Shown here piece after piece: positions 22,400 through 29,461 of a DNA stretch of 64,000 nucleotides. Position numbers and translations under genes: made by a program. Positions within the stretch are counted from its first letter, which is position 1. Every line of letters starts with the position of its first letter. Source of the DNA: Hymenobacter wooponensis (lineage in GTDB: Bacteria; Bacteroidota; Bacteroidia; Cytophagales; Hymenobacteraceae); NCBI RefSeq assembly GCF_004745865.1, contig NZ_SRKZ01000002.1, positions 62,001 to 126,000 on the forward strand. The letters are read 5' to 3'. The notes under the pieces were generated by a model. That model was not told the DNA's origin, did no database searches, and worked only from the letters and a program-made list of their open reading frames with translations.

Positions 22400-22459
22400 A
22401 AAACTCCCTCCACTATGGTGCTGCCTGTTAAAGGGCAGCACCATAGTGGAGGGAGTTTT
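22400..22459. terminator. 26-bp perfect hairpin terminator
   Basis: Arms 22400-22425 and 22434-22459 pair perfectly and end in A4/T5 runs. It lies between the convergent PorE-like gene and the helical-repeat gene and can act on both. Confidence 0.85.
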
Positions 22460-22492: not shown

Positions 22493-24034
22493 CTAGCCCA
22501 CGTAGCTACGGCTAGCATGCTCAGCAGCAGTTTGCTCTGCCTCCAGCTTGCGCAGAATATCGAGAGTAAAGAGCCACAAGTTTTCATAAGGAATAATCTC
22601 AATCTCGCCGTAGGCCTCACCGGGCTGCGGAGCCACTTTGAGTCGCTCTAGTAATGGCTGTGCCTTCTGCTCGCAAGCCTGCGACACAAAGTTTTCCTTA
22701 ACCGTCAACAAGAGCATTCTAAAGAACAGTTGACTGCGCAGCGTGGCAGGGTTACGCAAATGTCGTTGCTCGTACTTGCGCAAGCCCTCCAGGCGGGCTA
22801 GCAGCCCTTCAATATCACGACGGCGTAGAAAGTATAAGAACTGTAGAATTAGAATGGCTACGTTGTAGCCCTGCTTGTCTCGACTATAATCGGGAACGGT
22901 TTGCACCAGTTGCGCAAAGTGCCGCATTTTCAGCGGCGACTGTTCTGGTTGGATCAGCTGAATGTAAGCCTCATACAGCTCCCACCGTTGCTGTGCGGCG
23001 GGGCGTTGCTTGCGGTAATAAGGGTTCCGGCGTGCCTGCTGCAGCAAGTCGTAGGCCTGTCCGTACTGCGCCGCATGCATAGCTAGCAGCAGATAAATCT
23101 CTAAGTAATAAAACCAGTTGCCCGAAGAGTAATGGAAATCCTTGAAGTATTCTTCGGCCAACTGCAGGCCCTTTTCGGCTCTTCTACATTGCAAGTGCGC
23201 ATACACACTCATGTAGTTGTTAAAGCGCTTATCAAAACGCTTCTCATTGATCTTTCCCTGCTTGAGTGCCTTGTCCGTCGCCGTAGTCAGCCGGATAATC
23301 TCTTCGTAGTTACCCGTCAACTCTTCCCTCGACATTTTAGTCACGTACAGGAAGTAGAAAGTATTATAGCTCTTAGCCTTCTTATGTAAGGCTTCTAGGC
23401 GTTCTAAGTAATCCGGAAGTTGCTTCAGGATAAATTGGCGCCACCGCACTTTATGCTGAGAGAATACTTTTATCTCATAATAGAGCTGCTCCGCTTCATC
23501 TTCTAGCTCCAATAGCTTTTGCAACTCGTTGAGTTGCTTGTTCATGACTTTGAACCGCGCGGGGTTACGCATCTCTGCATATAATATGCGCAGCATTCTT
23601 GCGCACATCACGGCATATTGGGTCAGCTCTGCCTCCGTAGCCAATGTGAGAGCTTTCCGGTAAAGCCTTTCAGCGAGCTTATATTCTGCTTCACCACTTA
23701 AAATTTTAGCTTGGTGCAGCAAGCCTAGGCAATGCTGCTCATGCCGGCGTGACACCACGTGGCGCGCATCAGTATGATCCAGAAAATACAAGTGGTTTAG
23801 TAGCTTCTGCTGTACCCGAGACTTAAGCTTACGAAAAGTTGTTTGGCTCTTCGCCTCAGTACTTCCATATAAGGTTTTAACTATCTTGTTCTGCGTAATG
23901 GTAGGGTCGCTTTCCAGTAGCCGCACCAACTGTAAGTCCTTGCTAGCTCCATTTCGATCAGAAAAATCTAGAAATGGTAACACCGCTAGTCGCCTATCTG
24001 TCACAATTTTTACTAGCGTAGTCAATTCATCCAT
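22493..24034 (-). CDS. Helical-repeat protein with possible N-terminal winged helix
   Basis: A 513-residue cytosolic protein I cannot name. Residues about 32-85 (LQLVRLLESDPTITQNKIVK, then TTFRKLKSRVQQKLLNHLYF) look like a winged-helix DNA-binding or protein-binding segment. The remaining 400 residues are almost entirely helical with TPR-like spacing (AEYKLAERLYRKALTLATEA, YLEIYLLLAMHAAQYGQAYD). There is no signal peptide. It is divergent from the tandem-repeat secreted protein across a 371-base AT-rich gap with operator-like repeats. The layout of a helical-repeat protein beside a peptide-like gene and an oligopeptide importer recalls RRNPP regulators, but this is only inference. Confidence 0.6.
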   Translation of the reverse strand: MDELTTLVKIVTDRRLAVLPFLDFSDRNGASKDLQLVRLLESDPTITQNKIVKTLYGSTEAKSQTTFRKLKSRVQQKLLNHLYFLDHTDARHVVSRRHEQHCLGLLHQAKILSGEAEYKLAERLYRKALTLATEAELTQYAVMCARMLRILYAEMRNPARFKVMNKQLNELQKLLELEDEAEQLYYEIKVFSQHKVRWRQFILKQLPDYLERLEALHKKAKSYNTFYFLYVTKMSREELTGNYEEIIRLTTATDKALKQGKINEKRFDKRFNNYMSVYAHLQCRRAEKGLQLAEEYFKDFHYSSGNWFYYLEIYLLLAMHAAQYGQAYDLLQQARRNPYYRKQRPAAQQRWELYEAYIQLIQPEQSPLKMRHFAQLVQTVPDYSRDKQGYNVAILILQFLYFLRRRDIEGLLARLEGLRKYEQRHLRNPATLRSQLFFRMLLLTVKENFVSQACEQKAQPLLERLKVAPQPGEAYGEIEIIPYENLWLFTLDILRKLEAEQTAAEHASRSYVG

Positions 24035-24096
24035 TACGAAAAGCTCATTTAGAGTGTATCAGCGGCTATAATACTAATATAAGTTGATGAATTTGC

Positions 24097-24196
24097 TATG
24101 TCACAAAAACAGCATAAACATCCTTTCCATAGGCTAATCTCCTGCTCACCTTTGTATCAGATAAATTTTATCCATTTGAGTCGTTTTATGTCACAA
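24097..24196. repeat. Two TATGTCACAA direct repeats
   Basis: TATGTCACAA occurs at 24097-24106 and again at 24187-24196, exactly 90 bases apart, in the divergent gap before the repeat-protein gene. Both copies are followed by similar A-rich sequence and a CATAAA. Confidence 0.5.
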
Positions 24197-24213
24197 TAAT
24201 GCCATAAAACGAC
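24180..24213. promoter_or_regulatory. Operator-like 11-bp inverted repeat
   Basis: GTCGTTTTATG at 24180-24190 pairs perfectly with CATAAAACGAC at 24203-24213 across 12 bases. The second TATGTCACAA copy lies within it. Its place between divergent genes suggests a binding site or an RNA hairpin. No exact -7 box was found in the 24035-24405 gap. Confidence 0.45.
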
Positions 24214-24405
24214 CTATTAATTATACTTCAAGTACTACTCAACATTAGGTATAAGCTCTTAAAAAGGCTATTCACTACGTACCCGCAGCGCAGAACGGCA
24301 TAAAATTTCACGTCACGTTTACCCAGTTTCTTTCCTTTACGCCGGCTGGTTTGGTCCCCACATTTGTGTCAGTCAACCACTTGAACCACAAATATTTCCC
24401 ATACC

Positions 24406-25014
24406 ATGTTAAACTTCATCGCCGTTGCTCTGCTCCAGTTCTCTAGCCTGACTTCTTCAGTTGCAACTACCCAGCCACATAGTGAACTAGCCTCTCCCAA
24501 GCAAAACGCAGTGACCATTGATCACGGCACCAGCGGTTGGGGCGACGGCTACCTCGCCGCTGCTGAGCATGGGACCAGCGGTTGGGGTGATGGCTATTTA
24601 GCCGCTGTGGAGCACGGTACCAGTGGCTGGGGTGATGAATACTTGGCTGCCGCCGACCACGGCACGAGCGGCTGGGGCGACGGCTATCTGACGGTAGCAT
24701 TTCATGGCAAAAGTGGCTGGGGTGAAAGCGATGTAGCTGCCGCCGACCATGGCACGAGCGGCTGGGGCGACGGTTACCTCGCTACCGCTGATCACGGCAC
24801 CAGCGGTTGGGGCGACGGCTACCTCGCCGCTGCTGAGCATGGGACCAGCGGTTGGGGTGATGGCTATTTAGCCGCTGTGGAGCACGGTACCAGTGGCTGG
24901 GGTGATGGATACTTGGCTGCCGCCGACCACGGCACGAGCGGCTGGGGCGACGGTTACTTGGCAGTAGCGGATCATGGTACCAGCGGCTGGGGCGACGGTT
25001 ACATTACTGCATAA
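24406..25014 (+). CDS. Secreted protein of eleven 15-residue tandem repeats
   Basis: A 202-residue protein: a hydrophobic, signal-like N-terminus (about residues 1-20, ending SSVA), a short spacer, then eleven units of consensus DHGTSGWGDGYLAAA from residue 39 to the end. Unit 5 (FHGKSGWGESDVAAA) is the most divergent and the last unit ends YITA at the stop. Each unit has one Trp, no Cys and four Gly. The units use different synonymous codons, so the amino-acid sequence is being maintained. No Lys/Arg occurs in the repeats except one Lys in unit 5. I do not recognise the family; it could be a multi-copy peptide precursor or a surface structural protein. Confidence 0.8.
   Translation: MLNFIAVALLQFSSLTSSVATTQPHSELASPKQNAVTIDHGTSGWGDGYLAAAEHGTSGWGDGYLAAVEHGTSGWGDEYLAAADHGTSGWGDGYLTVAFHGKSGWGESDVAAADHGTSGWGDGYLATADHGTSGWGDGYLAAAEHGTSGWGDGYLAAVEHGTSGWGDGYLAAADHGTSGWGDGYLAVADHGTSGWGDGYITA
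24520..25011 (+). repeat. 45-bp coding tandem repeat with 270-bp duplication
   Basis: Eleven in-frame 45-bp units. Units 1-3 and most of 4 (from about 24520) recur as units 7-10 (from 24790) with, by eye, one base change in the first 170 or so bases, so a block of six units was duplicated recently. Other units differ mostly at third codon positions. Confidence 0.85.
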
Positions 25015-25112
25015 CCTCCAGATAGAACTGTAGAGCTTTGTTCATATATAAGCAGTCTCCTGCTAAAACATGGTAACTTGCCCGGCAGCAGTGCTTGCAC
25101 AGTTGTCCGTTC

Positions 25113-26834
25113 ATGAAGAGAATTCTAGCTGGTTTGTTTTTGCTGTTGTGGAGTAGTCTGGTAGGCTGCTCCACAACCGTTTCATCTGCTCCCGACGCAG
25201 TACGCATTCGCTGGGCTCGTGACCCCGAGAATCTTGACCCATTGATTGTGAAGACGTCCGGAGCACTTGAAGTTATCAGCTTACTTCATTGCAGCCTTTT
25301 GCAACCCAGCGAAGCTAAGGGCGAATACGTTCCATGGCTAGCGCAGGATTTCCCCCAGGTCACCCGCATCGGTGATTCACTCATGCAGGTTACCTATCAA
25401 GTTCGTCCGGAAGCAACCTGGGATAATGGCAAGCCCATTCTAGCTAGTGACGTGGTTTTCACTCTTAAGGTAATGCACTGCGCCGGGCTACCTACGGAGC
25501 TTGACCAGGCGCGTTTCGGCTTTGTGCGCGACATATTACCCGACGCCAACGACCCCCGGCGTTTCTCACTGCTGTGCCGGGGACAATCAATTGATTTTGT
25601 CCGGAGCTCCGGTGACTTCAGCATTTTGCCTGAGTACGCACTGGACCCCGAGGCTACTTTGCGAGCTATACCAGTGGCTGCTATGGGCAAACCCTTGCCC
25701 GTAGTGCAAGCCTTTGCTCAGCGCTACTTAGCGGGTGACTTTGCTCGTCATCCGGAGCGGGTTCCGGGGAGTGGCCCTTATCAGTTGGAGAACTGGCAAC
25801 CTGGTCGGCAACTTACCCTTACTCGCAAGCCTACGTGGTGGGCTGATCGGATTTCCTCACCTCCTCCGCAGCTTTGGGCCTATCCTCACCGCATCAATTA
25901 CCAGATAATTCCAGAGGCGGCCACGGCAGTGCTGGCCCTGCGCCGGGGCGATATTGACTTATACCCTTTGATTCCGGCCACTGAATTTGCGCGCTTGCAA
26001 CAATCCCCTTCAGATCGTGAGCGTCTGCAGTTTCTCACTGCCGATTCTTATGAGTGCCTAACGGCGAACTTCAACATGCGTAACTCGCTTCTGCAAGACC
26101 AACTGACCCGGCAGGCCCTGTCTTATTTGTTCAACGTTCCGGCGCTCATCAAAGCTTCGCAACTAGGCCATGCTTACCCCAGCGTGGGGCTGATTAGTCC
26201 GAGTGTAAAGCAATACTATAATGACAGCCTGCCCCTACCGACCCACAGCCCTGATCAAGCTGTGCGACTGCTGCAGCAAGCGGGCTGGCAGCGGCAGCCA
26301 GATCGTAGTTGGGTAAAACCTTCCGCATCGGGTACCAAGCAGCCTCTTCGCCTTAGCATTAGTTACCGGGCCGGAGAACCATCCTTCGAAACTACGGCGC
26401 TGCAATTTCAAGCAGCTGCAGCTACCATAGGCATTCCCATAGACCTGCGGCCTACGGAAGCTTCGCTCCTGAGCCAGCAGGTGCTTCAGGGGAAAGTTCA
26501 GATTCTCTTGCGCAACATGCATGGCCAGCCGTTCGCTTATGATTTCACGCCCATTCTACACTCTCAAAGCACTGACTTGTATAATGCATCTGGGTTTGGC
26601 ACTCCCTCCAGCGACCGTCTCATTGAGGATATAGCACAAGAAAATAGTCCACAAAGAAAGGCCCAGCTACTGCGCAAGTTTCAGCGGCTGATTTACGAAG
26701 AACGGCCACTTACCGTGCTCTATTTCCTGCAATACCGGATAGCCGCAGCAAGGCGTCTTGGGAAAGTGCCTGTATCGGGCCTGATGCCTGGCTATGTAGT
26801 TACTAGCATTCGCCTTGATTCTGTGGCCAACTAA
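25113..26834 (+). CDS. ABC importer substrate-binding lipoprotein (peptide/nickel type)
   Basis: A 573-residue family 5 extracellular solute-binding protein, the class that captures oligopeptides, dipeptides or nickel. The signal ends in a lipobox LVGC after MKRILAGLFLLLWSS. The family pattern is seen in RWARDPENLDPLIV, WDNGKPILASDVVFTLKVM, GSGPYQLENWQPGRQLTLTR and NFNMRNSLLQDQLTRQALSY. ATG 25113 (not the ATG 18 bases earlier) gives the lipoprotein signal. It starts 98 bases after the repeat-protein gene and two bases before the permease gene. Ligand unknown; peptides are likely from the family. Confidence 0.88.
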   Translation: MKRILAGLFLLLWSSLVGCSTTVSSAPDAVRIRWARDPENLDPLIVKTSGALEVISLLHCSLLQPSEAKGEYVPWLAQDFPQVTRIGDSLMQVTYQVRPEATWDNGKPILASDVVFTLKVMHCAGLPTELDQARFGFVRDILPDANDPRRFSLLCRGQSIDFVRSSGDFSILPEYALDPEATLRAIPVAAMGKPLPVVQAFAQRYLAGDFARHPERVPGSGPYQLENWQPGRQLTLTRKPTWWADRISSPPPQLWAYPHRINYQIIPEAATAVLALRRGDIDLYPLIPATEFARLQQSPSDRERLQFLTADSYECLTANFNMRNSLLQDQLTRQALSYLFNVPALIKASQLGHAYPSVGLISPSVKQYYNDSLPLPTHSPDQAVRLLQQAGWQRQPDRSWVKPSASGTKQPLRLSISYRAGEPSFETTALQFQAAAATIGIPIDLRPTEASLLSQQVLQGKVQILLRNMHGQPFAYDFTPILHSQSTDLYNASGFGTPSSDRLIEDIAQENSPQRKAQLLRKFQRLIYEERPLTVLYFLQYRIAAARRLGKVPVSGLMPGYVVTSIRLDSVAN

Positions 26835-26836
26835 CT

Positions 26837-27901
26837 ATGAAGTTGAGCCGATATCTGCTGCTTCGGCTTGGCAGAACTTCGTTAGCTGCCTGGGCTATTA
26901 TATCCTGCATTTTCTTGCTTTCTCGTTTAGCCTCCGGCGATGCTCTCATTCGGTCTGTTCTAGACGAAGCTTTCACCCAGCCTACTATTACTGCAACAGA
27001 GCGCGCCGAAACGGAAGCTTTATTACGGCACCGGTTCGGGGTAGATGTGCCGCTCTTCTACCTGTCCTTTTCTACTCCACCTGGTGCTACGGCACCAGCA
27101 TGGCAGTGGCATGGCATGACTAACCAGTACCACCGGTGGCTAGAGTCACTGCTGCACGGCAATTTAGGCTACTCATACAGGGAGGGTGCCGCTGTGGCTG
27201 ATCTTCTTAAGTCAGCTTTACAGTACACGCTTCCGCTCACGTTTCTAGCTGCTATCTTGGCAGTAGCCTTAACATTTGAGTTCTGTATTTGGCTAGGGTC
27301 CCACCCAGCGTGGCGCAGCCCTATCTTATCCACGCTATATGTGGTGCAATCGATACCGCTCTTTGTTATTGCCTTGGTGTTGCTGCTGCTGTTTGCAAAC
27401 CCCGACGTATTCACTTGGTTTCCAGCATATGGCTTAGGCTCAATAGATTCTTTCTCGCCATGGACTGGTGCCCTAGGCCAGTATCTATACCATTTGGTAC
27501 TGCCTCTACTCAGCCTAATCTTGGTGAGTGTGCCTAGCCTAGCTATTCAGCTTAATGCTTCTATACAGATGGAAGCACACGCTTTGTATGTTGCCACAGC
27601 CCGTGCGAAAGGAGTTGCGCCACGCGCCGTTGTCCGGCGCCATATTGTTCGTAATGCTCTTCTACCCGTATTGCCACTGCTCACTGAGCTTGTGCCCAAC
27701 GTAGTGGCGGGGTCAGTAGTAGTGGAAATGATATTTGCCCTACCAGGTATGGGTCGGTTGCTGGCTGAGGCAGCATCAGCGCAGGATTACCCCGTGCTAC
27801 TAGGCGCAGTACTGCTGGTATCATTAGCTCGGTTATTCAGCCAGCTCCTCGCAGATTTGCTCTACCAGTGGATTGACCCACGGATCAGGCTGTCGGCATG
27901 A
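26837..27901 (+). CDS. ABC importer permease, DppB/OppB type
   Basis: A 354-residue inner-membrane permease with about six transmembrane segments. The cytosolic coupling EAA loop is seen as YVATARAKGVAPRAVVRRHI, and the downstream FALPGMGRLLAEAA is typical of DppB/OppB. It follows the binding-protein stop by two bases and overlaps the next permease by four (ATGA), so the three form one operon. Confidence 0.92.
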   Translation: MKLSRYLLLRLGRTSLAAWAIISCIFLLSRLASGDALIRSVLDEAFTQPTITATERAETEALLRHRFGVDVPLFYLSFSTPPGATAPAWQWHGMTNQYHRWLESLLHGNLGYSYREGAAVADLLKSALQYTLPLTFLAAILAVALTFEFCIWLGSHPAWRSPILSTLYVVQSIPLFVIALVLLLLFANPDVFTWFPAYGLGSIDSFSPWTGALGQYLYHLVLPLLSLILVSVPSLAIQLNASIQMEAHALYVATARAKGVAPRAVVRRHIVRNALLPVLPLLTELVPNVVAGSVVVEMIFALPGMGRLLAEAASAQDYPVLLGAVLLVSLARLFSQLLADLLYQWIDPRIRLSA

Positions 27902-28890
27902 AACGGAGACTTCAGCGGATAAATCTCATAGCCTTGGGCTGGCTATTCCTGTTGCTGCTGGGAGCTACAATAGCCCCCACGTCTTCGCCTCCCCCCAATT
28001 TATTACTTACTACAGTCGCGCCCTTTCACTCGGTCCACTGGCTAGGTACTGATCCGGTGGGGCGTGATGTATGGGCTAGTCTGCTAGCGGGTGCCCGCGC
28101 GACTCTGCAAATTAGCTTACCGGCTGCCTTGCTTTCTAATATATTGGGCGGAACACTGGGTGCTATAGCAGGTTATTTTGGCAATAACCGCCTGCGCATT
28201 GCCTACGGCTGGTTTGCCGCACTAGTACTCATGGTATCGGGAATATGTGCTCTTATGGGGCCGCTGTGGCAGTCACTGGGCTTGCTTGTAGTGGGTGCTG
28301 TAGGCCTAAGTGCTGGGCTAGGCTGGCTGCTGAGCAGTTCCCGATGGGGCAGCAACCTCTTATCTGTTCCACTAGATGATATGATTCAGGCGCTTATTGC
28401 CCTGCTCGACTCCATTCCACTTCTAATGCTAATCCTGACGGTAGCAGCTATTCAGCAACCCTCATTGTCAGGGCTAATAGCTCTGCTGACCATCACGTGC
28501 TGGACCACACCTGCCCGGCTGCTGCGGGCAGCTACGTTGCGCACCGTTCCACTACAATTTGTGATGGCCGCAGAAGCCGCAGGTCTGCCACCGTTGCGCA
28601 TCGTTCGGAAGCACATCTGGCCTACTATATGGCCGGTACTACTAGCGCGCATTCCGCTTAGTATAGCACTGATTATAGGTTTGGAAACTACCTTGTCCTT
28701 TCTGGGTGTGGGCCTCCCTCCTGAGGTAGCTAGCTGGGGCAGGCTCTTAGCTTCTTCACGGCTGGCTCCCACGGCATGGTGGCTGATTGTGTGCCCGGGC
28801 ACCGCCATATTCTTAACCATTTGGTCTCTGCAAGCGCTAACAAAAGCAAAATCTTCAACTTTATTAGCGAGTACAGATGTCACAAAATGA
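27898..28890 (+). CDS. ABC importer permease, DppC/OppC type with insertion
   Basis: A 330-residue permease partner. HWLGTDPVGRDVWASLLAGA and the EAA-like loop FVMAAEAAGLPPLRIVRKHI, then ETTLSFLGVGLPPEVASWG, are DppC hallmarks. Between GAIAGYFGNN and LLDSIPLLMLIL lies an extra stretch of roughly 65 residues with two hydrophobic segments that the usual family member lacks. No ATPase gene (DppD/DppF) follows; the operon ends in the AT-rich gap. The ATPases must be encoded elsewhere for import to work. Confidence 0.9.
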   Translation: MKRRLQRINLIALGWLFLLLLGATIAPTSSPPPNLLLTTVAPFHSVHWLGTDPVGRDVWASLLAGARATLQISLPAALLSNILGGTLGAIAGYFGNNRLRIAYGWFAALVLMVSGICALMGPLWQSLGLLVVGAVGLSAGLGWLLSSSRWGSNLLSVPLDDMIQALIALLDSIPLLMLILTVAAIQQPSLSGLIALLTITCWTTPARLLRAATLRTVPLQFVMAAEAAGLPPLRIVRKHIWPTIWPVLLARIPLSIALIIGLETTLSFLGVGLPPEVASWGRLLASSRLAPTAWWLIVCPGTAIFLTIWSLQALTKAKSSTLLASTDVTK

Positions 28891-29461
28891 GCACTTTTTT
28901 CACAAAATCCTCTAAAGAATCAACTCGTTTATATTACTAATGTTGAGCTTATATAGCTCTTCAGAAGCCCTTAGCTTTTACAGAAATCAAAAACCTTAAT
29001 TTGTTCTTTCCCGCTATTTTATAATCTATCTCAGACAAATACAAGTCACAATTAGCGCAAAAGTGTCCTTTACAGCCCTATTATGACGCCTTAATATTGT
29101 CATGTGGAACGGCACAAAGGAGAAAGAAGCCGACTCACACAACTGTCTTGAGTTGTAAACACGATTACAGATTTCATGCTCTTTCATCATCGTCGGAGCT
29201 TTGGCGTGTGGGTGTATTTCCTGAAGAAATAGTACACCAAACGACATTTGCGGCCACTGGCTTCACAACGATCGACGGAGACATTTTATCGTACACTACC
29301 GGAACCGCCGCCATTTACAATGGCACAGCAGTTTTAGTAGGAGGACTTCTCGTCGGAGAGGTCTCGCCGCAAGACATTAAATTTTAAATATAGACTCAGG
29401 CTCCTGCAGTTGCTCGCGGGAATCCCTGATCTTAAGGTTGTTGCAATAGGTGTGTGAAAAT
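28891..29461. other. AT-rich gap after ABC operon
   Basis: About 570 bases, more AT-rich than the coding surroundings. TGTCACAAAA at 28878-28887 overlaps the permease stop codon, and GTCACAA recurs at 29045-29051, echoing the motif in the 24 kb gap. A short open frame sits at its right end. I see no RNA gene or insertion-sequence end. Confidence 0.4.
29208..29387 (+). CDS. Doubtful 59-residue open frame
   Basis: A frame from GTG 29208 encodes a 59-residue peptide with Thr/Gly-rich, alternating hydrophobic sequence (FTTIDGDILSYTTGTAAIYN, AVLVGGLLVGEVSP). There is no ATG in frame, no signal peptide and no clear promoter; the frame could also extend back to a TTG at 29097. It may be a remnant of a longer gene or chance. 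A terminator 75 bases downstream is the main reason to list it. Confidence 0.2.
   Translation: MGVFPEEIVHQTTFAATGFTTIDGDILSYTTGTAAIYNGTAVLVGGLLVGEVSPQDIKF

Follow-up and report, generated by a model that had tools for sequence, protein, structure and literature searches.

The stretch of DNA described here (the window) comprises 64,000 nucleotides of contig NZ_SRKZ01000002.1 of Hymenobacter wooponensis, the source genome being 6.0 Mb in size and Hymenobacter-like. It contains a cassette of five genes, encoding an all-helical protein (here called HEL), a small peptide precursor, an ATP-binding cassette (ABC) solute-binding protein (SBP) and two permeases (PERM1 and PERM2), which form one unit in all six genera of the family that were sampled. 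This cassette is probably a module of Bacteroidota for peptide sensing that resembles the RRNPP systems. The observations on which this reading is based are the content and order of the genes, their joint absence from some relatives, the selection acting on the peptide units, the predicted receptor-like fold of HEL and the promoter-like elements in front of the precursor gene. The features of the cassette are as follows.

22493-24034, minus strand: HEL, 513 aa, all-helical protein, predicted to be receptor-like; no Pfam or NCBIfam family
24406-25014, plus strand: peptide precursor, 202 aa, with a hydrophobic leader free of lysine and arginine, a spacer and 11 copies of a HGTSGWGDGYLAAAD-type unit
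24406-24453, plus strand: leader segment MLNFIAVALLQFSSLT of the precursor, described by a position table in which the commonest residues in relatives are MLELIAIALLQLAS
24523-25011, plus strand: array of 11 peptide units, from which the mature peptide or peptides around HGTSGWGDGY are predicted to derive
25095-26834, plus strand: SBP, peptide-type ABC solute-binding lipoprotein (SBP_bac_5; PF00496, 1.9e-49)
26837-27901, plus strand: PERM1, OppB/DppB-type permease (PF00528, BPD_transp_1, 2.3e-28; best NCBIfam model Opp4B, below cut-off)
27898-28890, plus strand: PERM2, OppC/DppC-type permease (PF00528, BPD_transp_1, 2.3e-16; best NCBIfam model Opp4C, below cut-off)

The original prediction, made from the window alone, had described HEL as divergent from a repeat protein that is followed by the binding lipoprotein and the two permeases; all parts were found in the places it had given, and its remark that the helical family is unnamed also holds.

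A sample of 200 genomes from six genera of the family was searched for HEL, which was present in 193 of them and in 6/6 genera. The neighborhoods of 100 HEL loci from 99 genomes of the six genera were read together with the window (101 stretches), and the 96 stretches with a divergent HEL-SBP pair are the base of the locus counts; left out were a paralogue (L065), alongside which neither a leader peptide nor the importer was found, and four loci cut by contig ends (L081, L086, L106 and L113). The SBP-PERM1-PERM2 operon is complete at 94/96 loci and a precursor sits in the gap between HEL and SBP at 94/96, both exceptions being L119 and L120. A strict filter (hydrophobic start without lysine or arginine, G..W near the C-terminus) found a precursor in 84/96 gaps, as against 0/96 on the reverse strand and 18/1920 in shuffled gaps; a relaxed filter found it in 91/96, and three further ones (L077, L124 and L128) were added by eye. 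By plain BLAST the repeat protein was detected in 42/200 family genomes, all in its own genus, and 45 of the 46 BLAST rows adjoin a HEL row, the 46th lying at a contig start. The co-occurrence of the three components, which had been proposed as a check, is thereby borne out within the family. The SBP gene of L119 (4628-8153) and of L120 (797-4316) is immediately preceded, at a distance of less than 100 bp, by another HEL paralogue; the first HEL keeps its precursor, and the permeases were not found within these stretches. Five stretches of one family genus (L133, L134, L136, L137 and L139) carry HEL as a tandem pair, the second copy being more diverged from HEL of the window.

The cassette genes come and go together. 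All seven family genomes without HEL also lack the cassette SBP and keep only another SBP (23-26% identical; 7/7), and three HEL-bearing controls have both, showing that the cassette importer does not contain the cell's only SBP_bac_5 protein. The syntenic site in these seven genomes (L315-L321) was located via an RmlD-like gene, and no match to HEL, SBP, PERM1 or PERM2 was found there in 7/7 stretches. On the left flank, the TPR and OmpA genes were detected in 7/7 cassette-free stretches; ORF (open reading frame) calling recovered the RmlD-like gene in 6/7 (L319 via the location search only) and the PPI gene in 6/7 (not L321). The place of the cassette is taken in all seven by the same large gene and a gene of about 236 aa, as judged by start sequence. 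In L315, the stretch tested with Pfam, the large gene encodes a hybrid histidine kinase and the smaller one a LytTR response regulator, and a PKD-domain protein follows them; two frames make up the large gene in L319. In the cassette-free stretches one regulatory module stands where the other would be. A minus-strand match to the leader-plus-tryptophan filter in L315 was rejected as chance, lying off the cassette place and overlapping other frames, with the motif absent.

The array of the window precursor consists, as originally predicted, of eleven units, ten of them with 15 residues; the last one departs from the predicted length, with 13 residues. The exact core HGTSGWGDGY is found in 9/11 units, the other two reading HGTSGWGDEY and HGKSGWGESD. 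In pairwise comparisons of codons 1-10 of the units, synonymous differences amount to 0.763 per site and non-synonymous ones to 0.045, compared with 0.788 and 0.237 for codons 11-15 of the ten full units. The unit core is under purifying selection, while the DNA of the repeats has diverged and the linker varies. This substitution pattern and the orthologues ruled out an artefact or a low-complexity gene.

Precursors with a single copy occur at 37/94 loci; they are 49-80 aa long and consist of a hydrophobic leader, a variable spacer and one GGxGxW-type motif near the C-terminus, many of them stopping right after it (...HGAGGWGDNH, ...QGGGGWGGD, ...GGTGTWDDSN). The remaining 57/94 loci have 2-20 units (overall range 1-20, with 20 in L077), and L126 has three tandem single-copy genes instead, each with a GGTGSWDDNN end. 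The single or multiple state switches at least six times on a tree built on HEL, which is a quick tree with some long branches. By comparison of these sequences, the 11-unit protein of the window is an amplified form of a small single-motif precursor, and the motif would be the mature peptide.

The leader is conserved among relatives (commonest residues M-L-E-L-I-A-I-A-L-L-Q). Its residues 2-15 include no lysine or arginine in 89/94 precursors and one lysine in the other five; 84 of the 94 had been chosen by the filter that demands a leader free of both residues, and the remaining ten had not. The repeat protein had originally been called secreted; the basis for this was only its hydrophobic N-terminus, which in the 89 precursors lacks the positive residues of a normal Sec signal, and this detail was not confirmed.

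The AlphaFold2 model of HEL (61 sequences) is all-helical, with a pLDDT (predicted local distance difference test) of 87.5 and a pTM (predicted template modeling score) of 0.84. Among the 958 chains aligned with VIA-align, which re-aligns Foldseek's own list only, ranks 1-11 are all Rap or NprR (Z 18.4-16.3), and nine of these were solved with peptide. The top match is Rap of phi3T with its pheromone (Z 18.4, root-mean-square deviation 4.4, 297 residues aligned); further values are Z 17.7 for Rap with CSF, 17.4 for Rap of pLS20 with Phr*, 16.5 for NprR with NprX and 15.2 for AimR, and among unrelated proteins a proteasome subunit (Z 15.7) and LGN (Z 15.4) score highest. HEL residues 168-502 align with Rap. 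The comparison suggested in the original prediction, which had named Rap and PlcR, supported that prediction, the best matches being Rap and NprR, and the model supports a Rap-like superhelix in HEL. This match is not proof of homology, because helical repeats score high in general, and the RRNPP rows are taken as fold likeness because a comparison by hhalign failed (see below). The N-terminal part of about 90 residues is predicted to form three helices (32-42, 48-56 and 61-84) without a wing, contrary to the winged helix that had been proposed, and includes the invariant residues R73 and K77; it is possibly a helix-turn-helix (HTH) or effector domain. The first 100 residues folded alone gave a model of low confidence (pLDDT 69.3).

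Two copies of an element are found between HEL and the precursor gene.

24100-24154, plus strand: element GTCAC-N17-CCTTT-N24-TTTG, copy 1, near HEL and pointing at the precursor
24312-24366, plus strand: element GTCAC-N17-CCTTT-N24-TTTG, copy 2, immediately upstream of the precursor

In the 94 intergenic regions used for the element count (L119 and L120 were left out), CCTTT-N23..25-TTTG occurs at least once in 85/94 and twice in 63, with 0/94 on the reverse strand and 0.8% in shuffles; the longer form GTCA-N16..20-CCTTT-N22..26-TTTG was found in 70/94. The usual -7 motif of Bacteroidota is TTTG with a TA-like box. Copy 2 is likely to be the promoter or operator of the precursor gene, and the elements may serve as its promoter or operator and as a likely target of HEL. 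The exact full element is found at the two sites of the locus and at only one other site in the genome. No wider regulon is claimed beyond the two exact sites of the locus, because with up to one mismatch there are 7 genome sites (three of them exact) as against 3 for a reversed control pattern. A one-mismatch copy lies just downstream of the last permease gene (29045-29099), beside an uncertain ORF of 96 aa with a TTG start at 29097; copies with one mismatch are near chance level genome-wide.

The start of the SBP gene is likely the ATG at 25113, which would give a lipoprotein signal (...LVGC). All NCBIfam matches of the three importer proteins are far below the cut-offs, the best model for SBP being NikA; PERM1 matches the model of the microcin C permease YejB (126.5 bits) in addition to Opp4B (176.1 bits). 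The original prediction had noted that ATPases are missing, which is correct for the SBP-PERM1-PERM2 operon, where none was found, but not for the genome. One genome ORF of 687 aa, unlinked to the cassette, was found by a search that relied on oligo_HPY and that ATPases without this extension would escape; it has two ABC_tran stretches and oligo_HPY and is therefore a dual peptide-ABC ATPase. This ATPase probably serves the cassette importer, and presumably both SBP systems of the genome. L232 and L233, loci from two genomes of a different family of the order, have a gene for a dual peptide-ABC ATPase immediately after HEL.

HEL homologues are also found outside the family: 82/291 genomes of the order (family members included), 22/296 genomes of the phylum and 16/23 genomes of one distant family have them. 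With the strict filter a leader ORF was detected at 15/59 HEL genes outside the family, compared with 1/59 on the control strand; this is an indicative count, in which L232 looks spurious and the real-looking L228, L253 and L264 are missed. Several HEL paralogues leave no room for a leader ORF. L228, from one family of the order, keeps the precursor type (with ...CDNGGWVDKDVKK), and L264 of the same family has a precursor with ...AIGWDDND as well as SBP and both permeases. In a distant family of another class (f43), nine leader precursors beside HEL were read, and they have a common M[DE]LLxAIL-like leader; their mean pairwise identity is 0.51 in the first 12 residues, 0.11 at positions 16-30 and 0.45 in the last 6, and 6/9 end in DRxED, the other three not (L281 ends in IIGEGF). 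At one of these loci, L260 (10071-10232), a second small ORF with three LIDRGENN units follows a leader-type precursor ending in FDRYED; this array seems to have been amplified independently, within a distant class.

Two further observations concern the surroundings. Between the OmpA-type gene and HEL of the window (22400-22459) lies a perfect inverted repeat of 26 bp with a loop of 8 bases, resembling a strong bidirectional terminator that would isolate the cassette. Clustered in stretch L299 of the same genome (1017-1920 and 2013-2417) are genes of small proteins whose N-termini are signal-like (...YYSGLATG..., ...SYEQGMADGADEEANYASAYGRG...).

PMC11343458 describes the intracellular sensing of peptide pheromones for Bacillota and for the mobile elements of this phylum, and the survey in PMC10075063 covered Firmicutes genomes only. 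Literature searches of open-licence papers yielded no report of such a system in Bacteroidota among the matches listed. The cassette resembles the RRNPPA systems (Rap-Phr, NprR-NprX, PlcR-PapR, AimR-AimP) in the predicted TPR-like receptor fold of HEL, in an oligopeptide-type importer and, as these systems are presented in PMC11343458, in an adjacent small precursor with an N-terminal leader, a C-terminal peptide and possibly several copies of it. The RRNPPA propeptide length of about 50-120 aa is matched by the single-copy relatives, whereas the precursor of the window is longer through its repeats. The cassette differs in that HEL has no detectable sequence homology to these receptors, in that the host belongs to Bacteroidota rather than Bacillota and has two membranes, in that HEL and the precursor gene are divergent with SBP and two permeases inside the cassette, and in that the leader is mostly free of positive residues and there are up to 20 copies of the peptide, as against the 1-4 per propeptide stated in PMC11343458. 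Phage Rap systems, described in the same paper, have propeptides with tandem duplications that likewise hold several putative pheromones each; maturation of several pheromones is reported there as demonstrated, whereas the 11 units of the cassette (1-20 in relatives) are candidate peptides. HEL is not filed as a member of RRNPPA, because a sequence relationship was tested for and was not found; fold, neighborhood and precursor logic are those of RRNPPA. With Opp/Dpp/Nik importers the cassette shares the SBP_bac_5 lipoprotein and the BPD_transp_1 permeases, and it differs from them by the lack of an ATPase in the operon and the genetic tie to a precursor and to HEL.

As a peptide-sensing module the cassette would work as follows. 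The precursor would cross the inner membrane via its hydrophobic leader and be cleaved to release a GxSGW-type peptide of about 8-12 residues, in one copy or in many. Return of the peptide to the cytoplasm would be through the neighboring SBP and permeases, with the unlinked dual peptide-ABC ATPase as their source of energy. There the TPR-like HEL would bind it and its action on DNA would change, the target probably being the two elements before the precursor gene (autoregulation); alternatively, the output of HEL might be a protein partner, as for Rap. The signal may pass between cells, or through the periplasm only (self-sensing). The peptide-signaling idea of the original prediction is supported by most of the genomic and structural tests, and its biochemical steps, namely export, cleavage, uptake, binding and regulation, are inferred.

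Several results weigh against this reading. Foldseek alone gave no match of HEL below 1e-3, and its ranking lists generic TPR proteins. The hhalign probability was 0.3% for HEL against one Rap, a control with an ordinary TPR protein of the window giving the same value, and 4.5% against ten Raps. For HEL of the window no match was obtained at Pfam E ≤ 0.01 or NCBIfam 0.1, TPR and HTH families included; another scan gave NNH6 at 0.049 as the sole match, and the TPR family matches in HEL set A1 each occur in one of its 37 members. The HTH likeness of the N-terminal part is weak, with a best Z of 5.0 to a sigma-factor region and 4.2 and 3.9 to Lrp-type HTH. The leader is mostly without the positive n-region that normal Sec signals have, neither an exporter nor a protease could be recognized among the cassette genes, and a peptide of about ten residues must also cross the outer membrane to act between cells. 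The nearest solved relatives of SBP are nickel-binding NikA, followed by oligopeptide binders. The seven genomes without the cassette may belong to one clade, and their joint lack of it may therefore go back to one event. Outside the family, 44/59 HEL genes are without a leader ORF by the strict filter, and no importer accompanies the precursor-HEL pair of L228 in the stretch that was fetched.

Four other explanations were weighed. The repeat protein might be a structural, adhesive or ligand-binding envelope protein beside which importer and HEL form a neighboring unit of peptide nutrition. Surface proteins often carry glycine/aromatic tandem repeats, and the wide range of copy number would suit such a role, but the orthologues with a single motif in 49-80 aa are too small for a repeat scaffold, and the seven genomes without HEL lack precursor and importer as well but retain the other SBP; this explanation is considered unlikely. 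Quite improbable is an antimicrobial or modified peptide, similar to a microcin or to a ribosomally synthesized and post-translationally modified peptide (RiPP), for which SBP and permeases would be the route of uptake or self-protection. The short leader and repeated cores do resemble multi-core RiPP precursors, and PERM1 matches the model of YejB, if more weakly than that of Opp4B; YejABE is the uptake route for microcin C. There is, however, no modification enzyme among the cassette genes, HEL is nearly universal in the family, unlike a patchy bacteriocin, and its predicted fold is receptor-like.

An intracellular loop, in which the small protein regulates HEL or the importer inside the cell or at the membrane without export and re-import, would agree with the scarcity of lysine and arginine in the leader and with the lack of a recognized exporter, but leaves unexplained why an extracytoplasmic binding lipoprotein is tied to HEL and why the motif was amplified to many units; little probability is assigned to it. 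The SBP relationship to NikA, by best NCBIfam model and nearest solved relatives, and the histidine and aspartate in the window units would fit a metal-scavenging loop with secreted chelating peptides, a Nik-like SBP retrieving the complex and HEL as regulator. Histidine is not conserved in the motif, many precursors ending without it (as in two of the ends given above), the NCBIfam matches are all far below cut-off and the predicted Rap-like fold favors peptide sensing, so that metal scavenging is very unlikely indeed.

The RRNPP-like reading of the cassette can be extended beyond the family, tentatively and as a possibility that we would not favor over its opposite: Bacteroidota may own a widespread superfamily of intracellular peptide signaling, made up of a HEL-type receptor and a divergent leader peptide with a C-terminal signal (GGxGxW in Hymenobacteraceae, GDGxxW or IDRxED in distant families), either separate from the RRNPP systems of Bacillota or diverged from them past recognition, with the importer captured in Hymenobacteraceae. 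If this is true, the copy number of the signal would be an evolvable dose. A Bacteroidota counterpart of the RRNPP systems would make cell-cell signaling directly testable in a large phylum of Gram-negative bacteria, and it would raise the questions of how a signal of about ten residues passes two membranes and for what reason the number of its copies ranges from 1 to 20. Specific names can be given for the candidate peptide, receptor and importer and for the likely operator, and seven natural relatives without the cassette are at hand.

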